DNA of 35,345 nt from positions 1 to 35,345 of the forward strand of contig QHMY01000043.1 in the NCBI GenBank assembly GCA_003218305.1, read 5' to 3'. The notes under the pieces are model-generated. The model saw nothing but the letters and a program-made list of their open reading frames with translations. It searched no databases and was not told the DNA's origin. Shown one piece after another: positions 1 through 26,630 of the stretch. Position 1 is the stretch's first letter. Each line of letters opens with the position of its first letter. The position numbers and the translations under genes were made by a program. This DNA is from Verrucomicrobiota bacterium (lineage in GTDB: Bacteria > Verrucomicrobiota > Verrucomicrobiia > Chthoniobacterales > UBA10450).

Positions 1-457
1 TCCGCTCGGATGCCTGGCCTGCGTTGAGTTGGCTCAAGAGGGTGGGGGCGCTTTCGACTTTCTGCTCGGGTTCATTCGAAACTCCTTCGCCAGATAACGC
101 CGAGCGCAGGGCGCCTTCAACCAGTTGCGCGCAATGAATCTTTACTGGCGGCAACGCGCCTAGCGGCGCAGCCAGCTCTTCGCCTGACATGGCCTGCGCT
201 TCCGCGATCGTTTTCCCGGCGAGCATTTCCGTCGCCACGCTGGCCACCGCGATCGCCGTCTGGCAGCCAAACGTCTGGAACGTCGCGCGATCGATTACTT
301 TGCGGCCGCCTTCTTCCTTGAACTTCACCCACATCCTCAGCATGTCGCCGCAATCGGCGCTGCCGACCGTGCCGACAGCGTCGGCATCCTTCATTTCGCC
401 GAGATTTCGAGGATTTTTTACCGCTTCCTCGATTCGATTTTGAAGATCGTCGCTCAT
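1..457 (-). CDS. IscU/NifU-type Fe-S cluster scaffold protein, partial (C-terminus beyond the window)
   Basis: The frame opens at the ATG at 457 and stays open to base 2, so about 152 residues are visible and the stop lies outside. Seen in the sequence: an early Cys in SADCGDM, then GCQTAIAVAS, then KIHCAQLVEGAL. These give the three Cys ligands and the spacing of the U-type scaffold domain that builds [2Fe-2S] clusters with a cysteine desulfurase (family knowledge). After the domain, from about residue 120, the protein continues as a Ser/Glu-rich tail, so it may be a NifU-like longer form rather than a plain IscU. A repeat of the B family lies 9 bases upstream of the start and I see no Shine-Dalgarno. 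The rhodanese-like gene behind it points the same way, consistent with a sulfur/Fe-S context. Confidence 0.82.
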   Translation of the reverse strand, partial: MSDDLQNRIEEAVKNPRNLGEMKDADAVGTVGSADCGDMLRMWVKFKEEGGRKVIDRATFQTFGCQTAIAVASVATEMLAGKTIAEAQAMSGEELAAPLGALPPVKIHCAQLVEGALRSALSGEGVSNEPEQKVESAPTLLSQLNAGQASER

Positions 458-465
458 ATAAGGCG

Positions 466-556
466 GTCATCCCGAGCGAAGTCGAGGGATCCCGTGTTGG
501 GTCGAGCGACGTTTCTCGGGGTTCTTCGACTCCGCTGCGCTTCGCTCAGAATAACA
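466..556. repeat. Family B inverted repeat, copy 1
   Basis: The left arm begins GTCATCCCGAGCGAAGTC and the right arm ends CTTCGCTCAGAATAACA, so the ends are imperfect inverted copies of each other around a variable middle. The same arms recur at 3272-3391 and 12389-12479. This copy fills nearly the whole gap between the rhodanese-like gene and the Fe-S scaffold gene. Confidence 0.8.
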
Positions 557-560
557 GAGT

Positions 561-1124
561 TCACGGCTGTTCGAGGTGGTATCGGGGCAGTTTCGGGTCG
601 ACTTCTGCGCTCCAGGCATCGATCCCGCCCTTCAAACTCTTCACGTTTTCGAAACCGTGTCCTTGAAAATAGGCCGCGGCGTCCATGCTGCGCGCGCCCT
701 GGTGGTCGTAAATAACGAGAAGATCGGTCTTGGATTCACTGGCCAGGATCTCCTGCATCAATTCTTGCGTGAACAGATGCGACCCGGGCAGCTTCACCGC
801 CTCCCATTCCTCCCGCGTGCGCACGTCGAGAAGGTAAACTTTTTCGCCGCGAACGATTCGATCTGAGAGTTCGAGCGGCTCGATCTGCATCGCGACGTCC
901 GCTTCGTGGCTGGTGATGATGTGTTCCACTACTTCGTCCACATTCAGGTTCTCATTACGAGCGCAAACACCCGCGAGGGTCTCGTCCTGCCCAAACCCGC
1001 AGCTGCTGCAACCGCCGATGTGATATTTGCGGAAGAGCGCTCGTTGGGCGCCAGGGAACTGCACGAGCAGGTCCCGCATGGTGATGTTTGGGTCGATTGA
1101 TGGCGCAAGAGTCACGCACCACAT
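561..1124 (-). CDS. DUF1858-like plus rhodanese-like domain protein (catalytic Cys replaced by Asp)
   Basis: 187 residues. Residues about 9-65 hold a small helical domain with a CSSCG motif, resembling DUF1858/ScdA-N type redox domains. Residues about 75-180 are a rhodanese fold (YLLDVRTREEWE, then the active-site loop, then GFENVKSLKGGIDAW). The active-site loop reads YDHQGARS where rhodaneses usually have Y-C-x-x-G-x-R-S, so the persulfide-forming Cys is Asp140 (codon GAC on the minus strand, 705-707). It is therefore unlikely to be a classical sulfurtransferase. I start it at 1124 rather than 1235, because the longer frame runs through a REP element. The ATG at 1124 has AGAGG 10 bases upstream, and the ATG at 1079 is another option. 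It lies next to an Fe-S scaffold gene. Confidence 0.85.
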   Translation of the reverse strand: MWCVTLAPSIDPNITMRDLLVQFPGAQRALFRKYHIGGCSSCGFGQDETLAGVCARNENLNVDEVVEHIITSHEADVAMQIEPLELSDRIVRGEKVYLLDVRTREEWEAVKLPGSHLFTQELMQEILASESKTDLLVIYDHQGARSMDAAAYFQGHGFENVKSLKGGIDAWSAEVDPKLPRYHLEQP

Positions 1125-1150
1125 TAAGGCGCGACCTCTGGATCGCAAAT

Positions 1151-1222
1151 GTAGTGGCGCTTCTGTGAAGCGCCTGGGTTGGGCCACGCTTGCCCTGGGG
1201 CGCTTCACAGAAGCGCCACTAC
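1151..1222. repeat. REP pair (family A, copy 1)
   Basis: Two REP hairpins in inverted orientation. Each begins with GTAG at its outer end, followed by the stem GGCGCTTC, a 3-base loop and GAAGCGCC. The halves are separated by about 24 bases. It sits just upstream of the RAYT gene, and half a further copy (GAAGCGCCAC) follows at about 1226. Confidence 0.92.
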
Positions 1223-1299
1223 AAAGAAGCGCCACAACATCGAAAAGTCTGAGAATGGTCTTCCCGGTTGTCTGAACGCCTTGTTATCATTCGGCCGGC

Positions 1300-1806
1300 A
1301 TGTCCCCCCGACATCGACCTCCCCGGCTCGCGACCATTTTTTATGATCCGCCGCTCTATTTTGTTACGGTCTGCGTGAGGCGGCGTCTTCGCGTTTTGGC
1401 GACAGACGCGGTTCATTCTGCCTTTCGGGATTTCGCAGTCCGCGGGCTCGAGAAGAAGCACATCGCTATAGGGCGTTACGTGATCATGCCCGACCACCTG
1501 CACCTGTTCGTATCGGGACCGCACGAGTTTCGCCTGGAACAGTGGGAGCGAATGCTGAAGCTGGTCTTGGGAAGAGCGACGCGAATGGGCCGGGCGCTTC
1601 GCAGAAGCGCCCCTACAAGGGCCCCCAGAGCAGCCGCTGTATCAAAGATGTGGGAGCGTGGTTTCTTTGATCACGTTATCCGGAATGCCGAGAGCTACGC
1701 TCAGAAGTGGGAGTATGTGCGTCAAAATCCGGTTCGAGCTGGATTGGTTGAGCGGGCCGAGGATTGGCCCTTCCAAGGAGAGATCGTAGAGATTTACCGC
1801 GACTAA
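1300..1806 (+). CDS. REP-associated tyrosine transposase (RAYT, IS200/Y1 HUH family)
   Basis: 168 residues. The metal-binding HUH motif is seen in MPDHLHLFV (His66, His68), and the C-terminal block has W-x-R-G-F-F-D-H-V-I-R followed by Y133 and Y139 in the helix that ends in RQNPVRAGLV. One of these tyrosines should be the nucleophile that makes the 5'-phosphotyrosine bond. The length is ordinary for RAYTs. Between the HUH motif and the W-x-R-G-F block, residues about 98-106 (GRALRRSAP) are encoded by a REP hairpin, with the frame kept open through it. The flanking REPs suggest that the protein mobilised this repeat family. RAYTs are usually single-copy and domesticated rather than jumping as a whole. 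Confidence 0.9.
   Translation: MSPRHRPPRLATIFYDPPLYFVTVCVRRRLRVLATDAVHSAFRDFAVRGLEKKHIAIGRYVIMPDHLHLFVSGPHEFRLEQWERMLKLVLGRATRMGRALRRSAPTRAPRAAAVSKMWERGFFDHVIRNAESYAQKWEYVRQNPVRAGLVERAEDWPFQGEIVEIYRD
1592..1616 (-). repeat. REP hairpin (family A) inside the RAYT coding sequence
   Basis: Read on the minus strand it is GTAG, then a 9-base stem GGGCGCTTC, a 3-base loop and a perfect complementary arm. It matches the REPs flanking the gene but with a fully paired stem. It lies in a variable loop of the transposase, between the HUH motif and the C-terminal Tyr helix. Confidence 0.92.
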
Positions 1807-1834
1807 TAGCTGGAGCGCTCGATGGCGCTTCGAT

Positions 1835-1966
1835 GTAGTGGTCGCTTTTGTGAAGCGCCTGGGTTGCGCGACGACCGCCCAACGGCGCTTCACAGAAGCG
1901 CCACTACAAAGAAGCGCCTGGGTTGCGCGACGACCGCCGAACGGCGCTTCAGAGAAGCGCCACTAC
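1835..1966. repeat. REP cluster (family A): one REP pair plus a duplicated right half
   Basis: 1835-1907 is a REP pair, with GTAG at the left end and CTAC at the right. From about 1908 to 1966 the segment AAGAAGCGCCTGGGTTGCG to CACTAC repeats the right-hand two-thirds, so a tandem duplication has occurred. It ends 19 bases from the stop codon of the E2 gene, which comes in from the other strand. Confidence 0.9.
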
Positions 1967-1985
1967 GAGCGAGTACAAGAAGCCT

Positions 1986-3257
1986 CTAAAGCTTCGCGGG
2001 ATCGCCCAGCAACTCGGCTATCCGCTTCAGCAAGCGGCCGGCACCGCCGCCATCGAGGCTCCGATGATCGAAGCTCAAGGTCATCTGGGCTTCGGTTCTC
2101 GGCACGAACGCGCCTTTGCCCTCATCCCACGACGGCACCTTCTTTCCAACCCCGAGCCCGAGCAGCAGAGTCTGATCAGGCAGGGGAATCGGCGTGCCCC
2201 AATCCAGTCCGAAGCTGCCGAAGTTGGAAACAGAGGCGATTCCGCCCGAAGTCATTTCACCGGTGAGCCGGCGGCGCCGCGCGAGATCGACCAGCTCCGC
2301 ATAACGGCTGGTCAGGTCGCCGAGCGAAGTCTTATCTGCATTCCGAATTACGGGAACCATGATGCCGTCCTGCGCTTCCACCGCGACCCCGACGTCGATC
2401 GCCTCGGAGCGAATCGCGCGTCCCCCAATCAGGCGCGCGGCTGCGTTTGGTTGCTCCGCCAAGGCGAGTGCGAGGGCGCGCAGGACGTAAAGCGCGGGTC
2501 CCGGCTTGGGGTCACGTTTCGCGCGGTCCTGCAAAACAGGATCGAGGCAAACCGAAAGGCCAACCGTCGCGAGAGGTCGCGTCCAACTCCGGCGCATGGC
2601 GTCAGCCACGCCAGTCCGGATTGCGCTCGGTTTTTCCGCCGAATGGCCTTCGATTTGGCCGAGAAATTTCTCGAGGTCCTTGATCGTGACCCGGCCGGCG
2701 TTACCACTGCCGGCGACCCCCGCCAGATCGGCCTGGGTTAATTGCAGATCGGCCATGCGCGCGCGAACGCGCGGAGAAAGATAGCCCGCCCCCTTCGTGT
2801 CGGCGGGGACGGGAAGCACGCCCGTCTGATCGACCTGAAAATGCGAACCGGCGGCCACCGGCGGCAGGCCGGCCTCGTCGACTTGGAAATGCGAGCCACT
2901 GCCGGCCTGGGTCTTCACCGCTTTCGCGGATTCCTCCTCGCGGCCGGGCACTTCCTTCGCCACCTCACCGGTCGGCGGCTGCGGCGCGCGCTTCTGGAAC
3001 CGCGCGGCATCGGCTTCGCTCGCCTCGATATAACCGAGCACGGCTCCGACCGCGTAAGTCCCTTTCACCTCCGCGTCGATCTTCGCGATCTCACCCGGGC
3101 ACGGGGTCGTCACACCCATGACGGCCTTGTCGGTCTCGACCTCGATGATCTCCTGATCGGCGGAAACTTTGTCGCCCGGCTGGACCTTGATCGCGACGAT
3201 CGTCGCTTCAGCCATCGATTCGCCGAGCTGCGGCATGGTGATTGGAACTTGTGGCAT
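1986..3257 (-). CDS. pdhC: 2-oxoacid (probably pyruvate) dehydrogenase E2, dihydrolipoamide acyltransferase
   Basis: 423 residues in classical E2 order. The lipoyl domain is at 1-80 with the lipoylated Lys44 in ETDKAVMG. A linker spans about 85-155, and the peripheral-subunit-binding domain that docks E1/E3 is at about 159-199 (YLSPRVRARMAD to DLEKFLG). The catalytic acyltransferase domain ends in SFDHRSLDGG, with His398 and Asp402 as active-site residues. The linker holds two consecutive 16-residue units that begin GSHFQVD (residues 121-136 and 137-152), an unusual exact-length duplication. The gene follows E1 beta and E1 alpha on the same strand, and family B repeat 2 fills the gap to E1 beta. 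Substrate assignment to pyruvate is inferred. Branched-chain or acetoin complexes share this architecture. Confidence 0.9.
   Translation of the reverse strand: MPQVPITMPQLGESMAEATIVAIKVQPGDKVSADQEIIEVETDKAVMGVTTPCPGEIAKIDAEVKGTYAVGAVLGYIEASEADAARFQKRAPQPPTGEVAKEVPGREEESAKAVKTQAGSGSHFQVDEAGLPPVAAGSHFQVDQTGVLPVPADTKGAGYLSPRVRARMADLQLTQADLAGVAGSGNAGRVTIKDLEKFLGQIEGHSAEKPSAIRTGVADAMRRSWTRPLATVGLSVCLDPVLQDRAKRDPKPGPALYVLRALALALAEQPNAAARLIGGRAIRSEAIDVGVAVEAQDGIMVPVIRNADKTSLGDLTSRYAELVDLARRRRLTGEMTSGGIASVSNFGSFGLDWGTPIPLPDQTLLLGLGVGKKVPSWDEGKGAFVPRTEAQMTLSFDHRSLDGGGAGRLLKRIAELLGDPAKL
2802..2897 (-). repeat. Two tandem 48-bp units in the E2 linker
   Basis: On the minus strand, 2897-2850 encodes GSHFQVDEAGLPPVAA and 2849-2802 encodes GSHFQVDQTGVLPVPA. 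The units are of identical length and clearly related in DNA and protein. They lie in the flexible linker between the lipoyl and E1/E3-binding domains, where length changes are tolerated. Confidence 0.85.
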
Positions 3258-3271
3258 AAATTAATCAGCAG

Positions 3272-3391
3272 GTCATTCCGAGCAGAGCGAAGCGGAGTCG
3301 AGGAACCCGTGGCGCGGCGATCGATAATACTGCAGGGCCGTTCGTGACACGACGGGGTCCCTCGACTTCGCTTCGCTGCGCTCGGGATGAC
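3272..3391. repeat. Family B inverted repeat, copy 2
   Basis: It starts GTCATTCCGAGCAGAGCG and ends CGCTGCGCTCGGGATGAC, with inner arms GGAACCCGTGG and GGGGTCCCTCGAC. It occupies the whole gap between the E1 beta stop (3398) and the E2 start (3257). Confidence 0.85.
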
Positions 3392-3397
3392 GGTAGT

Positions 3398-4366
3398 TCA
3401 TTCGCTAAGAACCTGGCGAACCTTGGCCGCGATCGTCTTCGCGTTCGGCCGATGCTCGCTCCAAAGATTCGGGTGATATGGGATCGGAGTGTCCTTGGCG
3501 TTGATCCGGGCCGGCGCCGCGTCGAGCAGATGGAATCCTTCCGTCGCAACGCGCGCGATCACTTCCGCGGTCACGCCGCCCCAGGGAAACGCTTCGCCGA
3601 CGCAAAGCAGTCGTCCCGTGCGAGCGACCGAAGCGAGCACGGTATCGGTGTCGAGCGGCTTGACCGAGCGCAGATCGACCACTTCGATTTCGACGCCGTC
3701 GGCGCTGAACTGTTGCGCCACGGCGAGCGCCTCATGGACCATCGCGCTGTTGGTGACGATGCTGAGATCGCGGCCCGGCCGGACGATTCGTGCCTTTCCG
3801 ATCGGTAATTTCTCCGTCGGAAGCGCGTCGGCCTTGAGATGGTAATAGAGATATTTGTGTTCGCAGTAGATGACCGGGTCATCGATTGCGACTGCGTCGA
3901 TTAACATCGTGTAGGCGTCTTCGACCGTCGCAGGGGTCAGGACGACCAGCCCGGGATAATGCGAGTAAATGCCCTCCATGCTCTGGCTGTGGAACGGGCC
4001 GCTGCCTTTCGTTCCGCCTGATGGCAGGCGCACGGTGATAGGGCAGGGGGTTTGGGTCCGCCAATACTGGGTGCCGGCGTTGTTGAGAATCTGGTTGAGG
4101 GCAATGCTGGAGAAATCCGCGAACTGCATTTCCACGATCGGCCGCATTCCTTCCATGGCCGCTCCGATGGCCGTGCCCACCATGGCGTCTTCGCTGATGG
4201 GCGTGTTCAGAACGCGCCCCGGAAATTGCTCCGCCAGCCCTTTCGTGGCTTTGAACGCGCCGCCGAATTTCCCGGCAATATCCTGCCCGTAAATGAAGAC
4301 GCGGTCGTCCTCGCGCAAGAGTTTTGCCTGCGCTTCGCGAATTGCTTCGAGGTAGGTGACGCTCAT
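3398..4366 (-). CDS. pdhB: 2-oxoacid (probably pyruvate) dehydrogenase E1 component, beta subunit
   Basis: 322 residues, the normal length for E1 beta. Seen: N-terminal MSVTYLEAIREAQAKLLRED, the GQDIAGKFGGAFKAT loop, and TPISEDAMVGTAIGAAMEG, whose Glu is the conserved activator of the thiamine diphosphate aminopyrimidine in this family. The C-terminal transketolase domain includes GRDLSIVTNSAMVHEAL. It pairs with E1 alpha to decarboxylate the 2-oxoacid and acylate the E2 lipoyl group in the cytoplasm. It lies between E1 alpha (137 bases upstream) and E2, and both gaps are filled by repeat elements rather than tight operon spacing. Confidence 0.92.
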   Translation of the reverse strand: MSVTYLEAIREAQAKLLREDDRVFIYGQDIAGKFGGAFKATKGLAEQFPGRVLNTPISEDAMVGTAIGAAMEGMRPIVEMQFADFSSIALNQILNNAGTQYWRTQTPCPITVRLPSGGTKGSGPFHSQSMEGIYSHYPGLVVLTPATVEDAYTMLIDAVAIDDPVIYCEHKYLYYHLKADALPTEKLPIGKARIVRPGRDLSIVTNSAMVHEALAVAQQFSADGVEIEVVDLRSVKPLDTDTVLASVARTGRLLCVGEAFPWGGVTAEVIARVATEGFHLLDAAPARINAKDTPIPYHPNLWSEHRPNAKTIAAKVRQVLSE

Positions 4367-4378
4367 GGGCGGAAAAGG

Positions 4379-4510
4379 ACGAATGAGGAGAAAATGACGA
4401 ATGGTGAATGACGAAAGACGAACGAGGGCCAGCTACGCTGCGTGCTTTGATTCCGACATTCCTGTTTCGTCATTTGTTTCGGCCTTCGGCATTCGAGCTT
4501 CGTCATTCCG
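4379..4510. repeat. Family H inverted repeat (GACGAATGACGAA type) between E1 alpha and E1 beta
   Basis: The left arm is built from GACGAATG and AATGACGAA motifs. The right arm carries the complements (TTCGTCATT twice, GGCATTCGAG), with a non-repetitive centre of about 40 bases. The right end overlaps the last codon and stop of the E1 alpha gene (stop 4503-4505). Confidence 0.7.
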
Positions 4511-5537
4511 CGAGCGCCGGCTGATCGACGAGGCTGCGCGTGGCCACCGCGCACCAATCTTCTTCGCTGCCGACCGGTGTGTCTTCCTGCTGTGCGGTCG
4601 CGACGGCCTCATCCACTTCGGCTGCGAGCTCGGCTCGCATTTGCTGCAAAGCTTCGCGATCCATGAGCTCCTGTTCGAGAATCAATTGTTCGGCGAGTTG
4701 CAATGAATCCTGCGCGAACGGCTCGCGTCGGATGTCGTCGCTCACGTAGCTCGCGTCGTCGTGCTCCCCGTGACCGGCCAGGCGCAAAGTCGAGGCGACA
4801 ACGAGCTGAGGCGGACGACCGGCCCGGGCCCGCTGGACCGCGGCGCCGATGACTTCGAGGCACTGCGCCAGGTCAGTGCCGTCGACGGAGCTGCCTTCGT
4901 AACCGTAGCCTTTCGCGCGATCGACCAGGTCCGCGCAGGCGAACTGGCGGTCGTTCGGCGTGGAATAGGCGTAGTGATTGTTGGTCGCGACCATGACCAG
5001 CGGCACACGCTCGACCGCAGCGATGTTCATCCCTTCGTGGGTGGCCCCCGTCTGCATGCCGCCTTCACCGATGGTTGTAAGCCCTACGAAACCTTTCTCG
5101 CCCTTCATCCGTTTCGCGAGCAATTTGCCGACAACGACCGAGACCATCGCGCCGAGATGGCTGATCATGGCGAGCTGCCCCGTTTTCGGGCAACCGCGGT
5201 GAATGTTCCCATCGCGCCCGCGCATCGGACCTGAGCGCGAACCAAGATAGGTGCGCGCCACGTCGACCAGCGGTTCGCCGAAGGCAGACCGTCCGGCCTG
5301 GTCGCGGATGAGGGGAGCGAAGACGTCGCCTTCCTGCAAAAAAATGCCGCAGGCCACGCTCACCGCTTCCTGGCCTCGACCGATGTAAACGCCGCCAGTG
5401 ATCAGGCCGCCCCGGTAAAGACTCGCGAGCTTCTCTTCGAAAATCCGTGTCTGGAGCATGATCCGGAACGCCTCGAGGTATTTCTCGTGCGGCCCATTTT
5501 TCGAAGTGGAAGCGCCGCGTTCGGCGGTTTGGAGCAT
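4503..5537 (-). CDS. pdhA: 2-oxoacid (probably pyruvate) dehydrogenase E1 component, alpha subunit
   Basis: 344 residues. Seen: an N-terminal helix with RIFEEKLASLYRGG, a GQEAVSVACG stretch, the phosphorylation-loop-like region around YLGSRSGPMRGRDGNIH, and the thiamine diphosphate/Mg site from residue 157 to NN at 186-187 followed by HYAYSTP. The usual GDG at the start of the site is GEG here (Glu158), a conservative change in a metal ligand. The protein starts the oxidative decarboxylation passed on to E2. The last sense codon and stop lie inside a family H repeat. A REP pair (5596-5667) separates it from smc, so it probably heads its own transcription unit. Confidence 0.9.
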   Translation of the reverse strand: MLQTAERGASTSKNGPHEKYLEAFRIMLQTRIFEEKLASLYRGGLITGGVYIGRGQEAVSVACGIFLQEGDVFAPLIRDQAGRSAFGEPLVDVARTYLGSRSGPMRGRDGNIHRGCPKTGQLAMISHLGAMVSVVVGKLLAKRMKGEKGFVGLTTIGEGGMQTGATHEGMNIAAVERVPLVMVATNNHYAYSTPNDRQFACADLVDRAKGYGYEGSSVDGTDLAQCLEVIGAAVQRARAGRPPQLVVASTLRLAGHGEHDDASYVSDDIRREPFAQDSLQLAEQLILEQELMDREALQQMRAELAAEVDEAVATAQQEDTPVGSEEDWCAVATRSLVDQPALAE

Positions 5538-5595
5538 CTACGATTTAGCCATTGAGCCGAAAGCGGCGCAAAGTGTTTTTTGCAGCTGGCGTATT

Positions 5596-5667
5596 GTAGT
5601 GGCGCTTCTGTGAAGCGCCTTTCTGTGGTCGTCGTGCAACGCCGGCGCTTCGCAGAAGCGCCACTAC
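5596..5667. repeat. REP pair (family A, copy 4) between smc and pdhA
   Basis: GTAG-headed hairpins in inverted orientation, with stems GGCGCTTC/GAAGCGCC and different 3-base loops (TGT on the left, GCA on the right). It sits 19 bases past the smc stop and upstream of the pdhA start, where it could affect the smc 3' end or the pdhA leader. Confidence 0.92.
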
Positions 5668-5686
5668 AAGGGGCGACGGCGCTCCG

Positions 5687-8600
5687 CTACCGGGTCGCTA
5701 CGACATCGCGACGGGGCTCGTCCGATTCGCCGGCAATCGCAAACTCCGCCTGGCGCGGCTTTTGTTCCCGCGCCTTCGAGCCGTTGCCATTGCCGTTCGA
5801 CGAAGTGCGAATGAGTTTCCCGTCGGCACCGCGGTCCGCGGAAAGCTTCATCCCGACCAGTTTGCTCACGCCGCGTTCTTCCATGGTGACGCCGTAGAGG
5901 ATGTCGGCCTTCGCGATGGTGCGCTTGTTGTGGGTGATGATGATGAACTGGCTTTGCGTAACGAAGCGGTCCAGGACGCGGATGAACCGGTTGATGTTGC
6001 TCTCGTCCAGCGGCGCGTCCATTTCGTCGAGGATGCAGAACGGGCTCGGTCGCACCATGTAGATCGCGAAGAGCAGCGCGACTGCGGTCATGGTCCGCTC
6101 GCCGCCGGAAAGCAGGGACACGGTCTGCAATTGTTTTCCGGGCGGCCTCGCGCTGATTTCGATCCCACAGTTGAGCGGATCGTTTTCATCCTGAAGCGTT
6201 AGATCGGCCCGTCCTCCGTCGAACAGTTCGCGGAACATCTCGCGGAAATTGATTTGCACCTGCGCAAAAGTCTCGGCGAACAATTTTTGGGTGGTGCTGT
6301 TGATCCGGGTGATGACGTCGAGTACCTCGCGGCGCGCCGCGATCAAATCGTTGTTTTGCGTTTCCAGGAAACCGTAACGCTCTTCGAGTTCATCGTATTC
6401 GCTAACTGCCTCGAGGTTAACCGGGCCCATATTGTCGAGCTGGCGGGTGAGGTCCGCGATGATTTGCTCCAGATTCCTGGTGTCTCCCTCGGGCGAGGGA
6501 GGGGCGAGCTCCCGCGAGCCCTCGGCGGGAAGCGATTCTTCCGACCCAGTTGGCGCCGCGGGAGCTCCGTTCTCCGCGCTGCCGCGTCGTTTCGTGAGGA
6601 CGCTCAGCGTTTTTTGAAAGGCGAAAGCGTCTGTGGTGAAGCTGCGCAGGTCGACCTGGTAACGGCGCATCACATGCTCCGCCAGATTCTCGATCCGCAA
6701 TTGGAGCTGTGTTTGGCGAACCTCCTGTTTGCCGCGGAGATCCCGTAAATCGTTCAACGAATCGCGCAGCGCGCGCACTTGAGTTTCCCGGTCAGTGACC
6801 GTTGCCAGCCTGGTGCTTCGTTCTTCCGCCAGCGCGGAAACGGTCTCGCCCGCCGCTTCCATCTCGGCGGTCTGGCGCAAAATCTTCGCTTCGGCTTCCT
6901 CGGATTCTTTCGCCTGCGCGGCCAGCCGATTCTGGTAGGTCGCGATGTCTCCGCGGCGCGCTGCCACAAGATCGGCGAGCTCCGTTTCGCGGGCGGCCAT
7001 CGGCTGGCGATGATTCACCAGGCTCTCGTGCCGTTGCCGCTCCGTTGCCACTGCGAGCCGCAACTCATTCAATTTCTCCGCCGCGTCTTCTTCCTGCGCC
7101 CTCGCATTTTCCCGCGCTTGTTCGGCGAGACTCTTTCGCTCCAATTCCTTTTCGAAGGTCGTCCGTTGCGACCGCAGCTCCGCTTCCAGTTGGGCGATCC
7201 CTTCGTCAGCGCTTCGAACCTGCTGTTCGAGCGTGCCTTTTTCAGCCTCAAGGCTCGCCAGCTTCTGCTCCGCGTCTTGGACTGCCCGTTCCGAGGAGAG
7301 AACCTGAACACTGGCCTGGGAATGATTTTGTTGAGCCGCCTCGTGGCTCAGCCGGGCCTCTTCCACTGCCTCCATTCCGGCGTCGAGGCGCTTTTGAATA
7401 CTGTCGCGCTGGTCGATCAGGGTCTGCCGTTCCATGTCGAGCGTCTCGCGCTCCCGCGACAGATCGGTCAAAATGGCCTTGCGCCCGAGAAGCGAATCGC
7501 TCGCGGTGCTGGTGCTGCCACCGAAAATGATTCCCTCCGCGGAAACAAACTCGCCGCCAAGCGTGGCATATTGAAAATGACCGCCCTGTTTCTTTAACTC
7601 GAGGGCCGTGGCGAGATCGGCGACAATCGCCACGTCGCGCAAAACGTTCCGAACAATTGGCTGCAACGCCTCGGGGGCGTCGACTTTTTCGATCGCCCAA
7701 CTCAGCGCGCCCTTCGGCAGTTTTGAGGGCTTGTGATCGGGAAGGTCTGGTGACCACTCAGAAATCGCGAGGGCAGCCTGCCCCGCCTTGTCCTGCTGGA
7801 GCGTCTGGAAAATTTCTGCGGCCATCTCGGCCTTATTCAACACTACCGCGTGCATGGCGCGTCCGAAGGCCGCCTCGAGCGCGGGAACAAACTCGCGATC
7901 GACATTCAAGTTCGCCACGAGAGCGCCGCCCAGCGCTGGCCGGATCCGGTCGGGATCGTTCAATCCCTTCAAGACCGCTTGCGAGCCTGTCTCCAGTCCT
8001 TCGCCTTCTTCGGTCATCTGGCGCAGGACTTCCAGGCGCGCCTGTTTCTCCGCGATCACCCGATCGACTCCTGCAATCTCTTTTTCCGCCTGGGCGAGGT
8101 CCGACTGGTGCTGCCGCTGCTGTTCTTCCGACTCCTGCAAGGTCTGTCGCAGCTTTTCCGCCGTCTGACGGTCGTTTTCCATCGCCGCCCGGGTGCGGGC
8201 GAACTCGGCGCGGACTTCCTCTACGCGGCCTTTCTCTTCGTCAATCACGCGGCTCAGCTCGGAGATTCGCGCCGCCGTGGCGTCGCGTCGCGCGGTTACG
8301 CCGCTCAAATCATTCTGAAAGGCGGTGATTTTGGCTTCAAATTTTGAAAGCGAGAGATGGAGCGCCTGCAATTCCTCTTCGCGGTGCGCCCGCTCGGTCC
8401 GTCCCGCCCGCAAGGTCTCGGTGAGCTGTTCGACTTCGTTTTCCTTCGTCTTGAGAAGCTGATTGGTCCTGGCAATGAGCGCATCGGCTTCCTGTAATTG
8501 CGACGCCTGCTCGGTCCGTTTAGCCTCGGCGGCGGCGATGTCGCTTTCATAGCGTTCGATCAATTCGCCGAGCTCCTGCGCTCTCTGCCGGTTGAAATCG

Positions 8601-9511
8601 ATCCGGTTGCGCAGGGCTGCTGTTTCGCTTTGGAGCCGCTGCACCTCCGCCCGGGCGTCGCCGATGCGACCGTCGAGTTCCCCCAGGTCTCCGCGCTTGG
8701 CGGAGAGTTCGTTTTCGCTCTCCTCGATTTTGGCGTGAGCCTGCGCCGCCGCTTTTTCAAGACGCGATACCTCCGCGCGACCCTGTTCCGCTTCGGCTTC
8801 GAGCGCATTCAGCTGTTGATGCGAATGATGCGTGTCGAGCACTTGGAGGTCTGCCAGCAAAGTCTGGTAGCGGCGTGCCTTTCCCGCCTGCCGCTGGAGC
8901 GAACCGATCTGGCGTTTGACTTCCTTAATGATGTCGCCAATGCGCAGAAGATTCGCCTCGGTCGCCTCCAATTTGCGGAGCGCCTCGCGTTTTTGCGTTT
9001 TGTATTTGGTGATGCCGGCGGCTTCTTCAAAGACCGCGCGCCGATCTTCCGGCCGCGAGCTGAGAATCAGATCGATCTTGCCCTGCTCCATGATGGAGTA
9101 GGCGGTCCGGCCCACGCCGGTGTCAGCGAACAAACTTTGAATGTCGCGCAGCCGGCAGACGGTTTTGTTTAGCAGGTATTCGGAATTCCCGTCGCGATAA
9201 ACGCGCCGAGTTACGCGAACGTCGTGCCAGTCCACGCCGAGTTCGCTTTCGCAGTTGGTGAAGGTCAATGAAACCTCGCCGAATCCGACGGCCTTGCGCG
9301 TCTCGGTTCCGTTGAAAATAACGTCCGCCATTTCGCCACCGCGGAGTGCCTTGGCCGATTGTTCGCCGAGAACCCAGCGAACGGCATCGAGCACGTTCGA
9401 TTTGCCGCAACCGTTCGGCCCGACGATGGCGGTCACGCCTTCGTGGAACTCAAAGAGGGTTTTATCCGCGAATGACTTGAAGCCGACGAGTTCGAGCGAT
9501 TGAAGATGCAT
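5687..9511 (-). CDS. smc: Chromosome segregation protein SMC
   Basis: 1274 residues. Walker A GPNGCGKSN is at residues 31-39, followed by the Q-loop region YSIMEQGKIDLILSSRPEDRR. Long coiled coils run from about 170 to 500 and 680 to 950. The hinge is at about 510-670 (GGALVANLNVDREF to EGIIFGGSTS). The C-terminal head has LLSGGERTM at about 1131 and Walker B FCILDEMDAPLDE at about 1157. SMC dimers with ScpA/ScpB compact and segregate the chromosome. A Pro/Glu/Ser-rich stretch at about 980-1003, before the C-terminal head, is encoded by an inverted-repeat insertion (6506-6567). The C-terminal tail after the head is Asn/Gly- and charge-rich. The protein is somewhat longer than the typical 1150-1200 residues. 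Confidence 0.97.
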   Translation of the reverse strand: MHLQSLELVGFKSFADKTLFEFHEGVTAIVGPNGCGKSNVLDAVRWVLGEQSAKALRGGEMADVIFNGTETRKAVGFGEVSLTFTNCESELGVDWHDVRVTRRVYRDGNSEYLLNKTVCRLRDIQSLFADTGVGRTAYSIMEQGKIDLILSSRPEDRRAVFEEAAGITKYKTQKREALRKLEATEANLLRIGDIIKEVKRQIGSLQRQAGKARRYQTLLADLQVLDTHHSHQQLNALEAEAEQGRAEVSRLEKAAAQAHAKIEESENELSAKRGDLGELDGRIGDARAEVQRLQSETAALRNRIDFNRQRAQELGELIERYESDIAAAEAKRTEQASQLQEADALIARTNQLLKTKENEVEQLTETLRAGRTERAHREEELQALHLSLSKFEAKITAFQNDLSGVTARRDATAARISELSRVIDEEKGRVEEVRAEFARTRAAMENDRQTAEKLRQTLQESEEQQRQHQSDLAQAEKEIAGVDRVIAEKQARLEVLRQMTEEGEGLETGSQAVLKGLNDPDRIRPALGGALVANLNVDREFVPALEAAFGRAMHAVVLNKAEMAAEIFQTLQQDKAGQAALAISEWSPDLPDHKPSKLPKGALSWAIEKVDAPEALQPIVRNVLRDVAIVADLATALELKKQGGHFQYATLGGEFVSAEGIIFGGSTSTASDSLLGRKAILTDLSRERETLDMERQTLIDQRDSIQKRLDAGMEAVEEARLSHEAAQQNHSQASVQVLSSERAVQDAEQKLASLEAEKGTLEQQVRSADEGIAQLEAELRSQRTTFEKELERKSLAEQARENARAQEEDAAEKLNELRLAVATERQRHESLVNHRQPMAARETELADLVAARRGDIATYQNRLAAQAKESEEAEAKILRQTAEMEAAGETVSALAEERSTRLATVTDRETQVRALRDSLNDLRDLRGKQEVRQTQLQLRIENLAEHVMRRYQVDLRSFTTDAFAFQKTLSVLTKRRGSAENGAPAAPTGSEESLPAEGSRELAPPSPEGDTRNLEQIIADLTRQLDNMGPVNLEAVSEYDELEERYGFLETQNNDLIAARREVLDVITRINSTTQKLFAETFAQVQINFREMFRELFDGGRADLTLQDENDPLNCGIEISARPPGKQLQTVSLLSGGERTMTAVALLFAIYMVRPSPFCILDEMDAPLDESNINRFIRVLDRFVTQSQFIIITHNKRTIAKADILYGVTMEERGVSKLVGMKLSADRGADGKLIRTSSNGNGNGSKAREQKPRQAEFAIAGESDEPRRDVVATR
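6506..6567. repeat. Inverted-repeat insertion inside smc
   Basis: GAGCTCCCGCG at 6506-6516 and its exact complement CGCGGGAGCTC at 6557-6567 enclose 40 bases. The segment encodes a Pro/Ser/Glu-rich patch (residues about 982-1002) between coiled coil and C-terminal head, not expected from the SMC family. The frame is kept. Confidence 0.65.
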
Positions 9512-9641
9512 GGGATCGGCCGGTGGCCGTTATGTCCCATTAACCGCCAATCCTCGCCCAGTGACAAGGAAAATAATACCATTTGCAGCGGGGAGGCCCC
9601 CCGGAGGCACAACATATAGTGCCGGAGCCTGTTGCAGCCGG

Positions 9642-10952
9642 CTAGCCCAGGTCGCCCTCGCTGGTTAGCATGCGTATCCCATACCACGCCGAAGCGACCA
9701 CCAGGACGAGCGCTGCCACCCCAAATTCGGGGAGGGTCGCGTGCCACAAGATCCAAAGCACGATCGCGACGGCGAGGAACGGTATGACTTTGTCGCCGGG
9801 GATGGAGAAGGGTTTCCCATCCGAAACCACGTTTCGGCGGACCAGCTCAAACGCCGCCGAGCAGCAAAAAAGATAAAGGAGCAACGCCGCAATGTTTGAG
9901 AGGACCGCGAGATATTGGAAGGTGCTGCTGACGGATATCGCGCAGGCGATGATCGCATGCACGATGATCGCAATGTGCGGAGTCCGGAAACGCGGATGGA
10001 CCGCCGCCATTTTCGCGGGAAGAATTCCATTTCGCCCGAAAGCGTAAAGGGTCCGGGGCGAGCCGAGGATGTCGCCGCTGACGTAGCCGAAAGCGGAGAT
10101 AACCGTGCCCACCAAAATGATCGTTCGTCCCGCGTTGCCAAGAAAACGCGACGCCGCCTCAGCCAGAGGCGCGTCGACAAACTTCGAGAGCTCGGTTCCC
10201 AGAACGCCCTGGGCCACCAGTTGAATCGCGATGTAAAGCGCGGTCGTGATCGCGAGCGCGAGAAAAATCGATCGCGGCACCGTGCGTGACGGATTTTTCA
10301 CTTCACCGCTTGGGACGAGCGCGAGTTCGATTCCCATGAAGGCGAAGATGAGCAGCAAAACGGTTTTGCCTATGGCATCGCCTCCCGGCCAGACCGACCA
10401 TCCCAATGCCGCCGGGTGGATGAAGAAAATTCCCACGGCAATGAAGAGAAGTATCGGCAGGAGTTTCGCGATGGTCATCGTGGCGACGGTGCCGGCGCCG
10501 GCGCGCACCCCGCGAATGTTGATGAGGGCGAGCCCGGCGAAAATCAGGACGAGAACCAGGAAGCGCCCGATGCCTCCCTGCACGACTGGGAAAATCACGG
10601 CGACCGAAGCGACGATGGCGCTCGCCACCCCCGCGACGGCGAGAACGTTGGTCAGCCACAGCAAGACGCCGGCGAGAAAGCCGATGTAGGAGCCGAAAGC
10701 GACTTCCACATAGGCATAGAGGCCGCCGGTGAGGGAGACGCGGCTTCCAGCGATGGCGAACGACGTGACAACCAACACCATCACCACGGCGCAGATGACA
10801 TAGGCGATCGGAGCGGCGGCGCCTAAACCGGCGGCGACCACCGCGGGCAACACGAAAATCCCCGCGCCAATCGTTGCGTTAACGATGCTCGCGGTGAGCG
10901 TCGGGACCCCGAGCGCGCGAATTAATTTCTCGTCGTGCTCTTTCGCGGCCAT
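9642..10952 (-). CDS. APC-superfamily amino acid permease
   Basis: 436 residues, with about twelve hydrophobic segments. The first carries the APC signature GAGIF (residues 29-33 in NATIGAGIFVLPAV), and later segments include GGLYAYVEVAFGSYIGFLAG and AFMGIELALVPSGEVKNPSRTVPRSIFLAL, typical of amino acid-polyamine-organocation transporters. It is an inner-membrane transporter whose substrate cannot be told. I start at the ATG at 10952. The frame extends to a TTG at 10994, but the added residues are not membrane-like and the ATG begins the usual short cytoplasmic tail. It is divergent from the M20 peptidase gene, with 84 bases between starts, so transport and breakdown of peptides or amino acids may be linked. 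Confidence 0.9.
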   Translation of the reverse strand: MAAKEHDEKLIRALGVPTLTASIVNATIGAGIFVLPAVVAAGLGAAAPIAYVICAVVMVLVVTSFAIAGSRVSLTGGLYAYVEVAFGSYIGFLAGVLLWLTNVLAVAGVASAIVASVAVIFPVVQGGIGRFLVLVLIFAGLALINIRGVRAGAGTVATMTIAKLLPILLFIAVGIFFIHPAALGWSVWPGGDAIGKTVLLLIFAFMGIELALVPSGEVKNPSRTVPRSIFLALAITTALYIAIQLVAQGVLGTELSKFVDAPLAEAASRFLGNAGRTIILVGTVISAFGYVSGDILGSPRTLYAFGRNGILPAKMAAVHPRFRTPHIAIIVHAIIACAISVSSTFQYLAVLSNIAALLLYLFCCSAAFELVRRNVVSDGKPFSIPGDKVIPFLAVAIVLWILWHATLPEFGVAALVLVVASAWYGIRMLTSEGDLG

Positions 10953-12479: not shown

Positions 12480-13607
12480 ATGAGATGGCGCACAGTCGCC
12501 CTTGGATTCGCGGCCCTCGCCGGTCTAGCCATCCTGACAAACTTCGCCGCTCCCGCGCCCGCCGAGGAGTCGTTGGGCAGCAAGGTTAAGAAAATCTTCG
12601 CTCCGACGCCGACCCCGGCGCCGCGGAAGCATCACAAGAGCTCGACTAAGAAAAAAGAGGAAGCGGAAAAATCGCCGACCCCCAAACCCTCGCCCACGCC
12701 GGAAAAATCCCCGTCACCTTCTTCGTCGAAGAAAACGAAATCGACCGCGAGTCCCACCCCGACTGATGAGCCCGAGCCAAGCGCCTCCGCTTCCTCGAAG
12801 AAGAAAAAATCTTCCCCAATGCCGGAGCCCGACTCTTCATCCAGCGCTTCTTCCAAGAAAAAGAAAAAATCTTCGCCGACGCCAGATTCATCCCCAAGCG
12901 CTTCTCCGAAGAAAAAACGCAAGTCTTCCAAGTCGCCAACGCCTGAACCCGAGGAATCGCCAGAACCTTCGCCGGGCTCGACTGAGACGCCCGGGCCGGA
13001 TGAAACGCCGAGCGTCACACCGTCCCCTGCGCCCAAGAAGAAAGGAGCGCCCGCCACTATCCCGGCCAGCGAAATTTCGGGTTATGACAAGTATCCGGAA
13101 AAGGTGCGGCAGATTATCGACACGGCGCTCGAACTCACGAAGCGGAACCTTGATTACAAGTACGGTTCAGCCGATCCCGCGAGCGGGGGGATGGATTGTT
13201 CCGGTTTCGTGGTTTACGTGCTGACGCAGAATGGCATTCCCGATGTGCCGCGCGATTCGAGCCAGCAATATGTCTGGTTGCGCAAGGCGGGAAATTTCAA
13301 GGCGGTGAACAGCCGGCAGGAGGACACATTCGAGCTCGATGAGCTTGTTCCCGGCGATCTTCTTTTCTGGACCGGCACCTACAGTATCGAGCGCGACCCT
13401 CCAATTACGCATGCGATGATTTATCTCGGCCGGGAGAAAGGGACGAACCACCGCATCATGGTGGGCGCCAGCGACGGCCGGACCTACAAGGGCGAGTCGC
13501 GTTACGGCGTCAGCGTGTTCGATTTCAAGATTCCGCGTCCCGCCAAGACGGAGGAGGGCAGGACCAGCCCCAGCTTTATTGGCTACGGCCATATCCCGGG
13601 GCTGTAA
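12480..13607 (+). CDS. Secreted NlpC/P60 cysteine hydrolase with a long Lys/Ser/Pro-rich linker
   Basis: 375 residues. The N-terminus is a signal peptide (MRWRTVALGFAALAGLAIL, likely cleaved after APA). Residues about 35-195 are a low-complexity spacer of SKKKK, PTP and PEP blocks, strongly basic with acidic patches. The C-terminal NlpC/P60 domain has Cys240 in GGMDCSGFVVYVL and His311 in ITHAMIYLG, the catalytic pair of peptidoglycan endopeptidases. It probably cleaves peptidoglycan stem peptides in the periplasm or cell wall, and the basic linker could bind or span an anionic envelope polymer (inference). The open frame runs back into the family B repeat. I use the ATG right after the repeat, and the ATG at 12474 inside the repeat is equally in frame. 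No clear Shine-Dalgarno. Confidence 0.9.
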   Translation: MRWRTVALGFAALAGLAILTNFAAPAPAEESLGSKVKKIFAPTPTPAPRKHHKSSTKKKEEAEKSPTPKPSPTPEKSPSPSSSKKTKSTASPTPTDEPEPSASASSKKKKSSPMPEPDSSSSASSKKKKKSSPTPDSSPSASPKKKRKSSKSPTPEPEESPEPSPGSTETPGPDETPSVTPSPAPKKKGAPATIPASEISGYDKYPEKVRQIIDTALELTKRNLDYKYGSADPASGGMDCSGFVVYVLTQNGIPDVPRDSSQQYVWLRKAGNFKAVNSRQEDTFELDELVPGDLLFWTGTYSIERDPPITHAMIYLGREKGTNHRIMVGASDGRTYKGESRYGVSVFDFKIPRPAKTEEGRTSPSFIGYGHIPGL

Positions 13608-13618
13608 GTGTTCCTAAA

Positions 13619-13678
13619 CAAGGAGCGGCGGTCTCCAGTCCGCCGTCTGCGGGCGGTTTGTAAACCGCCCCTCCTTGG
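13619..13678. repeat. Family D inverted repeat, copy 1
   Basis: CAAGGAGCGGCGGTCTCCAG and GCGGTTTGTAAACCGCCCC with a terminal CTCCTTGG. The ends (CAAGGAG/CTCCTTG) are complementary and the inner half is a near-perfect palindrome (GGCGGTTTGTAAACCGCC). The second copy is at 14579-14644. This copy lies between two convergent genes. Confidence 0.9.
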
Positions 13679-14578: not shown

Positions 14579-14644
14579 CAAGGAGCGGCGGTCGCCAGTC
14601 CGCCGGTCCGGAAGGGAAGGCAGTTTGTAAACTGCCTCTCCTTG
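14579..14644. repeat. Family D inverted repeat, copy 2
   Basis: CAAGGAGCGGCGGTCGCCAG at the left and GCAGTTTGTAAACTGCC with CTCCTTG at the right. It has the same ends as the copy at 13619-13678 and a compensated palindrome (GGCAGTTTGTAAACTGCC), where paired changes keep the stem intact. It lies between queF and queC. Confidence 0.9.
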
Positions 14645-16635: not shown

Positions 16636-16650
16636 CGCGCGGCCTGTGTT

Positions 16651-16804
16651 GTCATCCCGAGCCGCGCAGACGACGAGGGACCTCGCAGGCGTTCAGTCGC
16701 TTCCGCGAAACGTCCCGCGTCTCCGTTATCGGACGCCCGACGCCTCGCGGTAGCGCAAATTCCAACTGCGGGGTCCCTCGCCGTCTGCGCGGCTCGGGAT
16801 GACA
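16651..16804. repeat. Family C inverted repeat, copy 1
   Basis: GTCATCCCGAGCCGCGCAGA at the left and CGTCTGCGCGGCTCGGGATG at the right, about 20 complementary bases. The inner parts are GAGGGACCTCGCAGG and CTGCGGGGTCCCTCG around a variable centre of about 80 bases. It lies between two convergent genes (DUF6572-like and apt), and the second copy is at 26467-26630. The outer stem is long enough to act as a two-way transcript end. Confidence 0.92.
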
Positions 16805-26457: not shown

Positions 26458-26466
26458 TGTTTGGGT

Positions 26467-26630
26467 GTCACCCCGAGCCGCGCAGACGGTGAGGGAGCTC
26501 ACAACAGGTTGAAGATCACACTCGGCAGAATAAGCGCCGGGTCACTGATGTTATGGTGCTTCCAAAGGCTTGAGGAAAACGACAAGTGCCACTGCGAGGT
26601 CCCTCGCCGTCTGCGCGGCTCGGGATGACA
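26467..26630. repeat. Family C inverted repeat, copy 2
   Basis: GTCACCCCGAGCCGCGCAGA at the left and CGTCTGCGCGGCTCGGGATG at the right, with inner GAGGGAGCTC and CGAGGTCCCTCGC around a variable centre. The outer arms match the copy at 16651-16804, while the centres are unrelated. It lies between convergent genes (SUMF1 fusion and rpsU). Confidence 0.9.

Follow-up and report, generated by a model that had tools for sequence, protein, structure and literature searches.

The window, by which we mean the whole 35,345-nucleotide stretch of DNA that was analysed, carries on its minus strand the gene smc (5687-9511), which encodes a chromosome partition protein of 1274 amino acids. The C-terminal part of this protein matches the sequences of solved Smc heads (best E value 4.2e-56), and its best matches among named genomes belong to metagenome genomes of Spartobacteria and Chthoniobacterales, a kinship that points to an uncultured member of Chthoniobacterales. 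Within smc, in frame and on the same strand, lies a 78-bp REPIN-type element of 26 codons (6498-6575), assigned here to a repeat family that we call A, which encodes about residues 979-1005 (AENGAPAAPTGSEESLPAEGSRELAPP). An earlier note, made from the sequence alone, had described exact 11-bp arms in frame within the gene, and these are present as described: the arm at 6506-6516 (GAGCTCCCGCG) is the exact reverse complement of 6557-6567 across a gap of 40 nt. The 62 bp that they enclose (6506-6567), taken in that note for the extent of the repeat, turned out to be only the inner part of a larger dimer of two hairpins.

In REPIN/RAYT systems, two inverted REP units carry outward tetranucleotide tags, and GGAG is an accepted variant of the GTAG tag. 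The smc element has the layout of a REPIN, with two GGAG-tagged imperfect hairpins placed head to head. REP arm 1 (6498-6520, plus strand), where a hairpin with a tandem G.A mismatch comes after the tag, departs from the family A pattern used at one of 23 bases, and the inverted REP arm 2 (6552-6575, minus strand) does so at 4 of 24. Between them lies a 31-nt spacer (6521-6551), which was ruled out as a nested repeat of its own, since its 22-nt core, searched with up to 3 mismatches, occurs nowhere else in the genome. Family A in general consists of two such tagged hairpins with a 48-bp core and a spacer of variable length; since this core amounts to 16 codons and is free of stops in all six frames, a clean insertion keeps the reading frame of its host gene. 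The RNA of the smc element is predicted to fold into a hairpin of -55.9 kcal/mol (z -2.96), a stability reached by 1 of 200 shuffles. The hairpins of the single arms, which come after the GGAG tag and contain the tandem mismatch, are no more stable than their shuffles (z -0.37 and -0.94). An Rfam search of window positions 1-10000 gave no matches.

The proposal that the insertion occupies a flexible joint before the C-terminal head fits a structure model of the fragment around it, built from an 18-sequence alignment and weak overall (mean pLDDT 67.5, pTM 0.28). Helices are predicted at fragment positions 89-107 and 137-154, pLDDT falls below 50 at 105-136, and the element encodes about 106-132; alignment to the best-scoring solved bacterial Smc heads starts just after the insert. 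The model would thus fit an insertion site in a flexible joint between two helices, just before the head.

Dispersal of family A and candidate transposases

The inverted repeat by itself was rejected as a sign of significance, because chance suffices to produce it: of 2000 smc genes with shuffled codons, 208 contained one or more 11-bp inverted repeats within 60 nt, and a test of the joint segment alone (40 shuffles) gave p = 0.17. It is dispersal, rather than the inverted repeat, that is the evidence for a repeat element. The 21-nt arm, allowing up to 3 mismatches, was found in the window and at five further places of the same genome (six matches in all; reversed pattern, none), and a looser 19-nt pattern did not discriminate (34 matches versus 53 for its reversed control). 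Among 58 genomes the arm is present in 12, with no match of the reversed control in any of them; these are 12 of the 37 genomes of the window's own family, and none of the 21 others. Matches per genome reach 30, 14 and 13 in G028, G023 and G034, respectively. With six places in the window's genome and 30 arm matches in another, family A has the many dispersed copies expected of REPs, in numbers below the more than 100 per genome usual for canonical REPs, which are mainly extragenic.

Sixty family A loci, a subset of the genome matches, were fetched with their surroundings. The full dimer occurs in 26 of them (28 dimers in total), and 25 of 63 copies, or about 40%, lie inside Pfam-supported open reading frames by our own reading. 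That count leaves out copies in lipB, ribF, YkuD, ADH and Cys/Met enzyme reading frames, which lie N-terminal of the recognised domains and may precede the true start. The remaining copies are extragenic or undecided, and part of the copies lie outside any reading frame of 150 amino acids. A match designated C241 (L177), within a methyltransferase domain, was judged to be chance. Dimer length, entered by hand, is divisible by three in 17 of 19 intragenic copies versus 4 of 12 others (p 0.002). In-frame insertions were found in smc, argG, mfd, lysS, ftsK, fadJ and further conserved genes, and in argG, mfd, lysS, ftsK and fadJ the copies stand at matching protein positions. The mfd site is empty in 24 of 29 aligned rows, in which one genome is represented twice. 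The mfd gene of G028 (L146) holds two family A elements, in different frames.

Y1-type transposases (PF01797) were detected in 52 of the 58 genomes, with four matches in that of the window. Near its left end, the window encodes a RAYT-like Y1/HUH transposase of 168 amino acids (1300-1806, plus strand; PF01797, E 1.8e-7), with a GTAG-tagged REPIN of another family, E, upstream (1150-1224) and family E REP units downstream (1843-1968). Family E arms have 49 matches in the genome and none for the control; the transposase is linked to this family and is a candidate for the enzyme that mobilises REPs here. One family E REP unit, with 2 mismatches, is found inside the transposase frame itself (1593-1617), and a family E REPIN stands just beyond the 3' end of smc (5594-5669).

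None of 30 RAYT loci examined has a RAYT gene flanked by family A. Two weak arm matches occur at these loci, with 5 mismatches at L072 and 3 at L094, neither of which looks by eye like a family A dimer; the latter was rejected as a family A copy, as it appears by eye to lie within a different, single hairpin. A tblastn search of 26 query reading frames against the 60 family A loci gave a single match (L141), which was dropped as a link to RAYT: the query is probably not a transposase, and the locus encodes a Cys/Met-metabolism enzyme. We infer that family A is probably moved by a RAYT transposase.

Repeat families at the smc joint

In 30 aligned SMCs, about 1050 residues of which are covered in most (the N-terminal part lying outside the loci), the joint, at 2 to 52 residues, is the sole internal block whose length varies strongly; length differences are also seen in two small blocks and in the C-terminal tail. 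The segment encoded by the element is not conserved: in L010 and L011, the nearest relatives, the linker is an unrelated sequence. Together with the copies elsewhere in the genome, this goes against both conditions that the earlier note had named as refuting, and supports its reading of a repeat absorbed in frame into smc. Family A is one among several repeat families present at this joint: besides the window, further genera carry it, still others carry family B, family D occurs in one, and C is a candidate family.

Of 55 genomes in which smc was matched, 30 yielded SMC loci, and the joint segment could be located in 88 of 102 loci, the remaining 14 being without the anchor motif. A tree was built from 44 of the 88 SMCs with the joint segment omitted, after exclusion of apparent duplicates and of other families of the order. 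These 44 SMCs of the order carry A in ten cases, B in nine, C in four, D in one and none of these in 20. At least 16 changes of state are needed on the tree to account for them; 14 remain when A and B only are counted, and 13 when L014, whose assignment to A rests on 6 mismatches in 23, is also set to none. The labels are clustered (16 changes versus a shuffled mean of 21.2, with a value as low in 0 of 200 shuffles), and part of the pattern is therefore inheritance. At the same time sister rows differ: L207 carries B and L211 carries C, and the two are joined by short branches with 99% support.

Families A, B and D are dispersed. Arms of B occur in 16 of the 58 genomes (control 0), with 72 matches in G007 and none in the window's genome, and D in 28 of 58 (control 0), with one match in the window's genome. 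Family C is a possible further element family at the joint, and is not counted as dispersed because in the loci analysed its matches outside smc number 3, compared with 1 when the pattern is reversed. We derived the B, C and D patterns from the smc copies, where scores of 0 mismatches arise by construction, and the dispersal of these families was tested separately from them. Among 440 codon-shuffled joint segments, 5 pass the cut for family A and 25 that for C, which is thus weakly separated from chance. One row, L035, was assigned to C by hand and also passes the cut at 6/20.

Further repeats were noted at the joint and elsewhere in the window. At the joint of L250, which was scored as none, stands a 17-pair inverted repeat with a different sequence. 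In L205 and L012 the hairpin loop of an A or B arm contains a nested second repeat (CCTGTCCTGAGC type), in opposite orientations in the two cases. Outside smc, the window contains an inverted repeat pair (TGTCATCCCGAGCCGCGCAGACG type) at two places (16650-16804 and 26466-26630), three imperfect direct repeats of 37 nt with 65-100% identity (12721-12886), and a near-identical 27-bp GGAG-containing hairpin-like repeat at 13619-13645 and 14579-14605. One copy of the last has CTCC in its loop, and inspection by eye shows CTCC there also in the arms of families A, B and D and in some C arms.

The arms of family A are far more alike than the fourfold-degenerate sites of the genes around them. Between smc rows, which were selected for recognisable arms so that the contrast is flattered, arms are 71-100% identical (17-23 of 23 bases in arm 1, 17-24 of 24 in arm 2) and fourfold-degenerate sites agree at 33-49%; in the pair L024 and L029, arm 1 is identical at 23 of 23 bases with fourfold agreement of 35%. 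Other host genes behave likewise: argG (fourfold sites 48%; arms 21/23 and 22/24), lysS (43%; 22/23 and 23/24) and, between genera, mfd (41%; 21-22/23) and ftsK (41-43%; arm 1 19-22/23, arm 2 16-20/24). Deep inheritance without copying hardly fits arms so much more alike than fourfold sites, and the contrast points to repeated insertion or copying, not deep inheritance alone.

Insertion, alternative explanations and known systems

We consider it very likely that the segment is a short mobile palindromic element of family A, non-autonomous, whose insertion into smc kept the reading frame. Most likely the insertion took place in the window's own lineage, since the two nearest sampled relatives are without the element, the alternative being its loss in L010 and L011. 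In the proposed course of events, a GGAG-tagged dimer, possibly moving as single-stranded DNA, in the manner of IS200/IS605-type transposition, through the action of a RAYT transposase, would insert in frame at the joint. It would survive there since the site encodes a disordered loop in which added residues are tolerated, and since its own 16-codon core is open in six frames. Selection against insertions elsewhere in smc may then make the joint a hot spot, and the loop would be revisited, with B, D and possibly C occupying it instead of A. The loop does look like a recurrent landing site, because relatives carry other repeats at the same spot.

A different history, in which a single old insertion of family A in the ancestor of the family was homogenised by gene conversion among dispersed copies, would explain why nine clear family A copies in smc share orientation and frame (EGGAPATPGSxELAPP type), and position-matched copies in argG, mfd, lysS, ftsK and fadJ also count for it. 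We regard it as unlikely, given that B in L207 and C in its sister L211 are not obtainable by conversion from family A, and that 20 of the 44 rows are free of all four families. Quite improbable, in our judgement, is retention of the element by selection for a DNA or RNA hairpin function, such as translation pausing or a protein-binding site: the strong predicted RNA hairpin and the likeness of arms across distant genera agree with such a role, while the same 20 of 44 SMCs and the two nearest relatives do without the element, and part of the copies lie outside any reading frame of 150 amino acids. Chance likeness of G+C-rich Pro/Ser/Glu linkers, to which the commonness of 11-bp inverted repeats in smc and a loose 19-nt pattern no more frequent than its reversed control might point, is refuted by the dispersed copies, with no reversed-control match in 58 genomes for A, B or D and only 5 of 440 shuffled segments passing the family A cut, and can be set aside with hardly any reservation.

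Insertion of a mobile element followed by survival in a tolerant loop leaves room for a stronger proposal, which we put forward as doubtful: that in essential proteins certain fixed loops (that of the Smc joint, and others in Mfd, FtsK, ArgG and LysS) might be landing pads targeted by REPIN families, beyond mere survival, with later insertions entering existing hairpin loops, as seen twice here. If so, selfish palindromes would keep rewriting the same disordered linkers. More generally, mobile palindromes may have supplied a chromosome-organising machine with new protein sequence time and again, and what passes for a family trait in the linkers of such proteins may instead be mobile DNA. The joint also offers a natural series, in which different elements occupy the same site between diverged flanks and hot spots can be tested against mere survival of coding palindromes.

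With REPIN/RAYT systems, family A shares the inverted tagged dimer and its occurrence alongside Y1 transposases (52 of 58 genomes); it differs in its fewer copies and in that no linked RAYT was found at 30 loci, and may differ in having about 40% of its copies inside reading frames. In the openly licensed literature, we found no description of such elements either from smc or for this order. Intragenic REPs have been treated by Di Nocera et al. 2013. In the main text of that paper (PMC3733652), GTAG/CGTC REPs are described as tagged short hairpins, often dimers, that lie in frame in genes and encode 20-30 residues; intragenic GTAG repeats are most numerous in Opitutus terrae, also a verrucomicrobium, with a mostly GTGG-tagged family, and in two Xanthomonas species recB carries such repeats at roughly one site. 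The same main text, the target-ORF list of Additional file 3 aside, contains no occurrence of smc or condensin. As far as that account goes, family A resembles these REPs in being a tagged hairpin, often dimeric, in frame, and differs in its GGAG tag and in the alternation of several families at one site across genera. The available part of PMC3767692 describes palindromic elements of Rickettsia and Wolbachia (RPE, WPE) of 100-150 bp, from a genome of 32.4% GC, in frame in genes at solvent-exposed places, and leaves the existence of hot spots open; family A is alike in its in-frame genic insertion, a likeness of behaviour and not a claim of membership. Intragenic REPs and the Rickettsia palindromic elements are thus already known; what is new is that several repeat families use one smc loop, with arms that agree far better than fourfold sites do.
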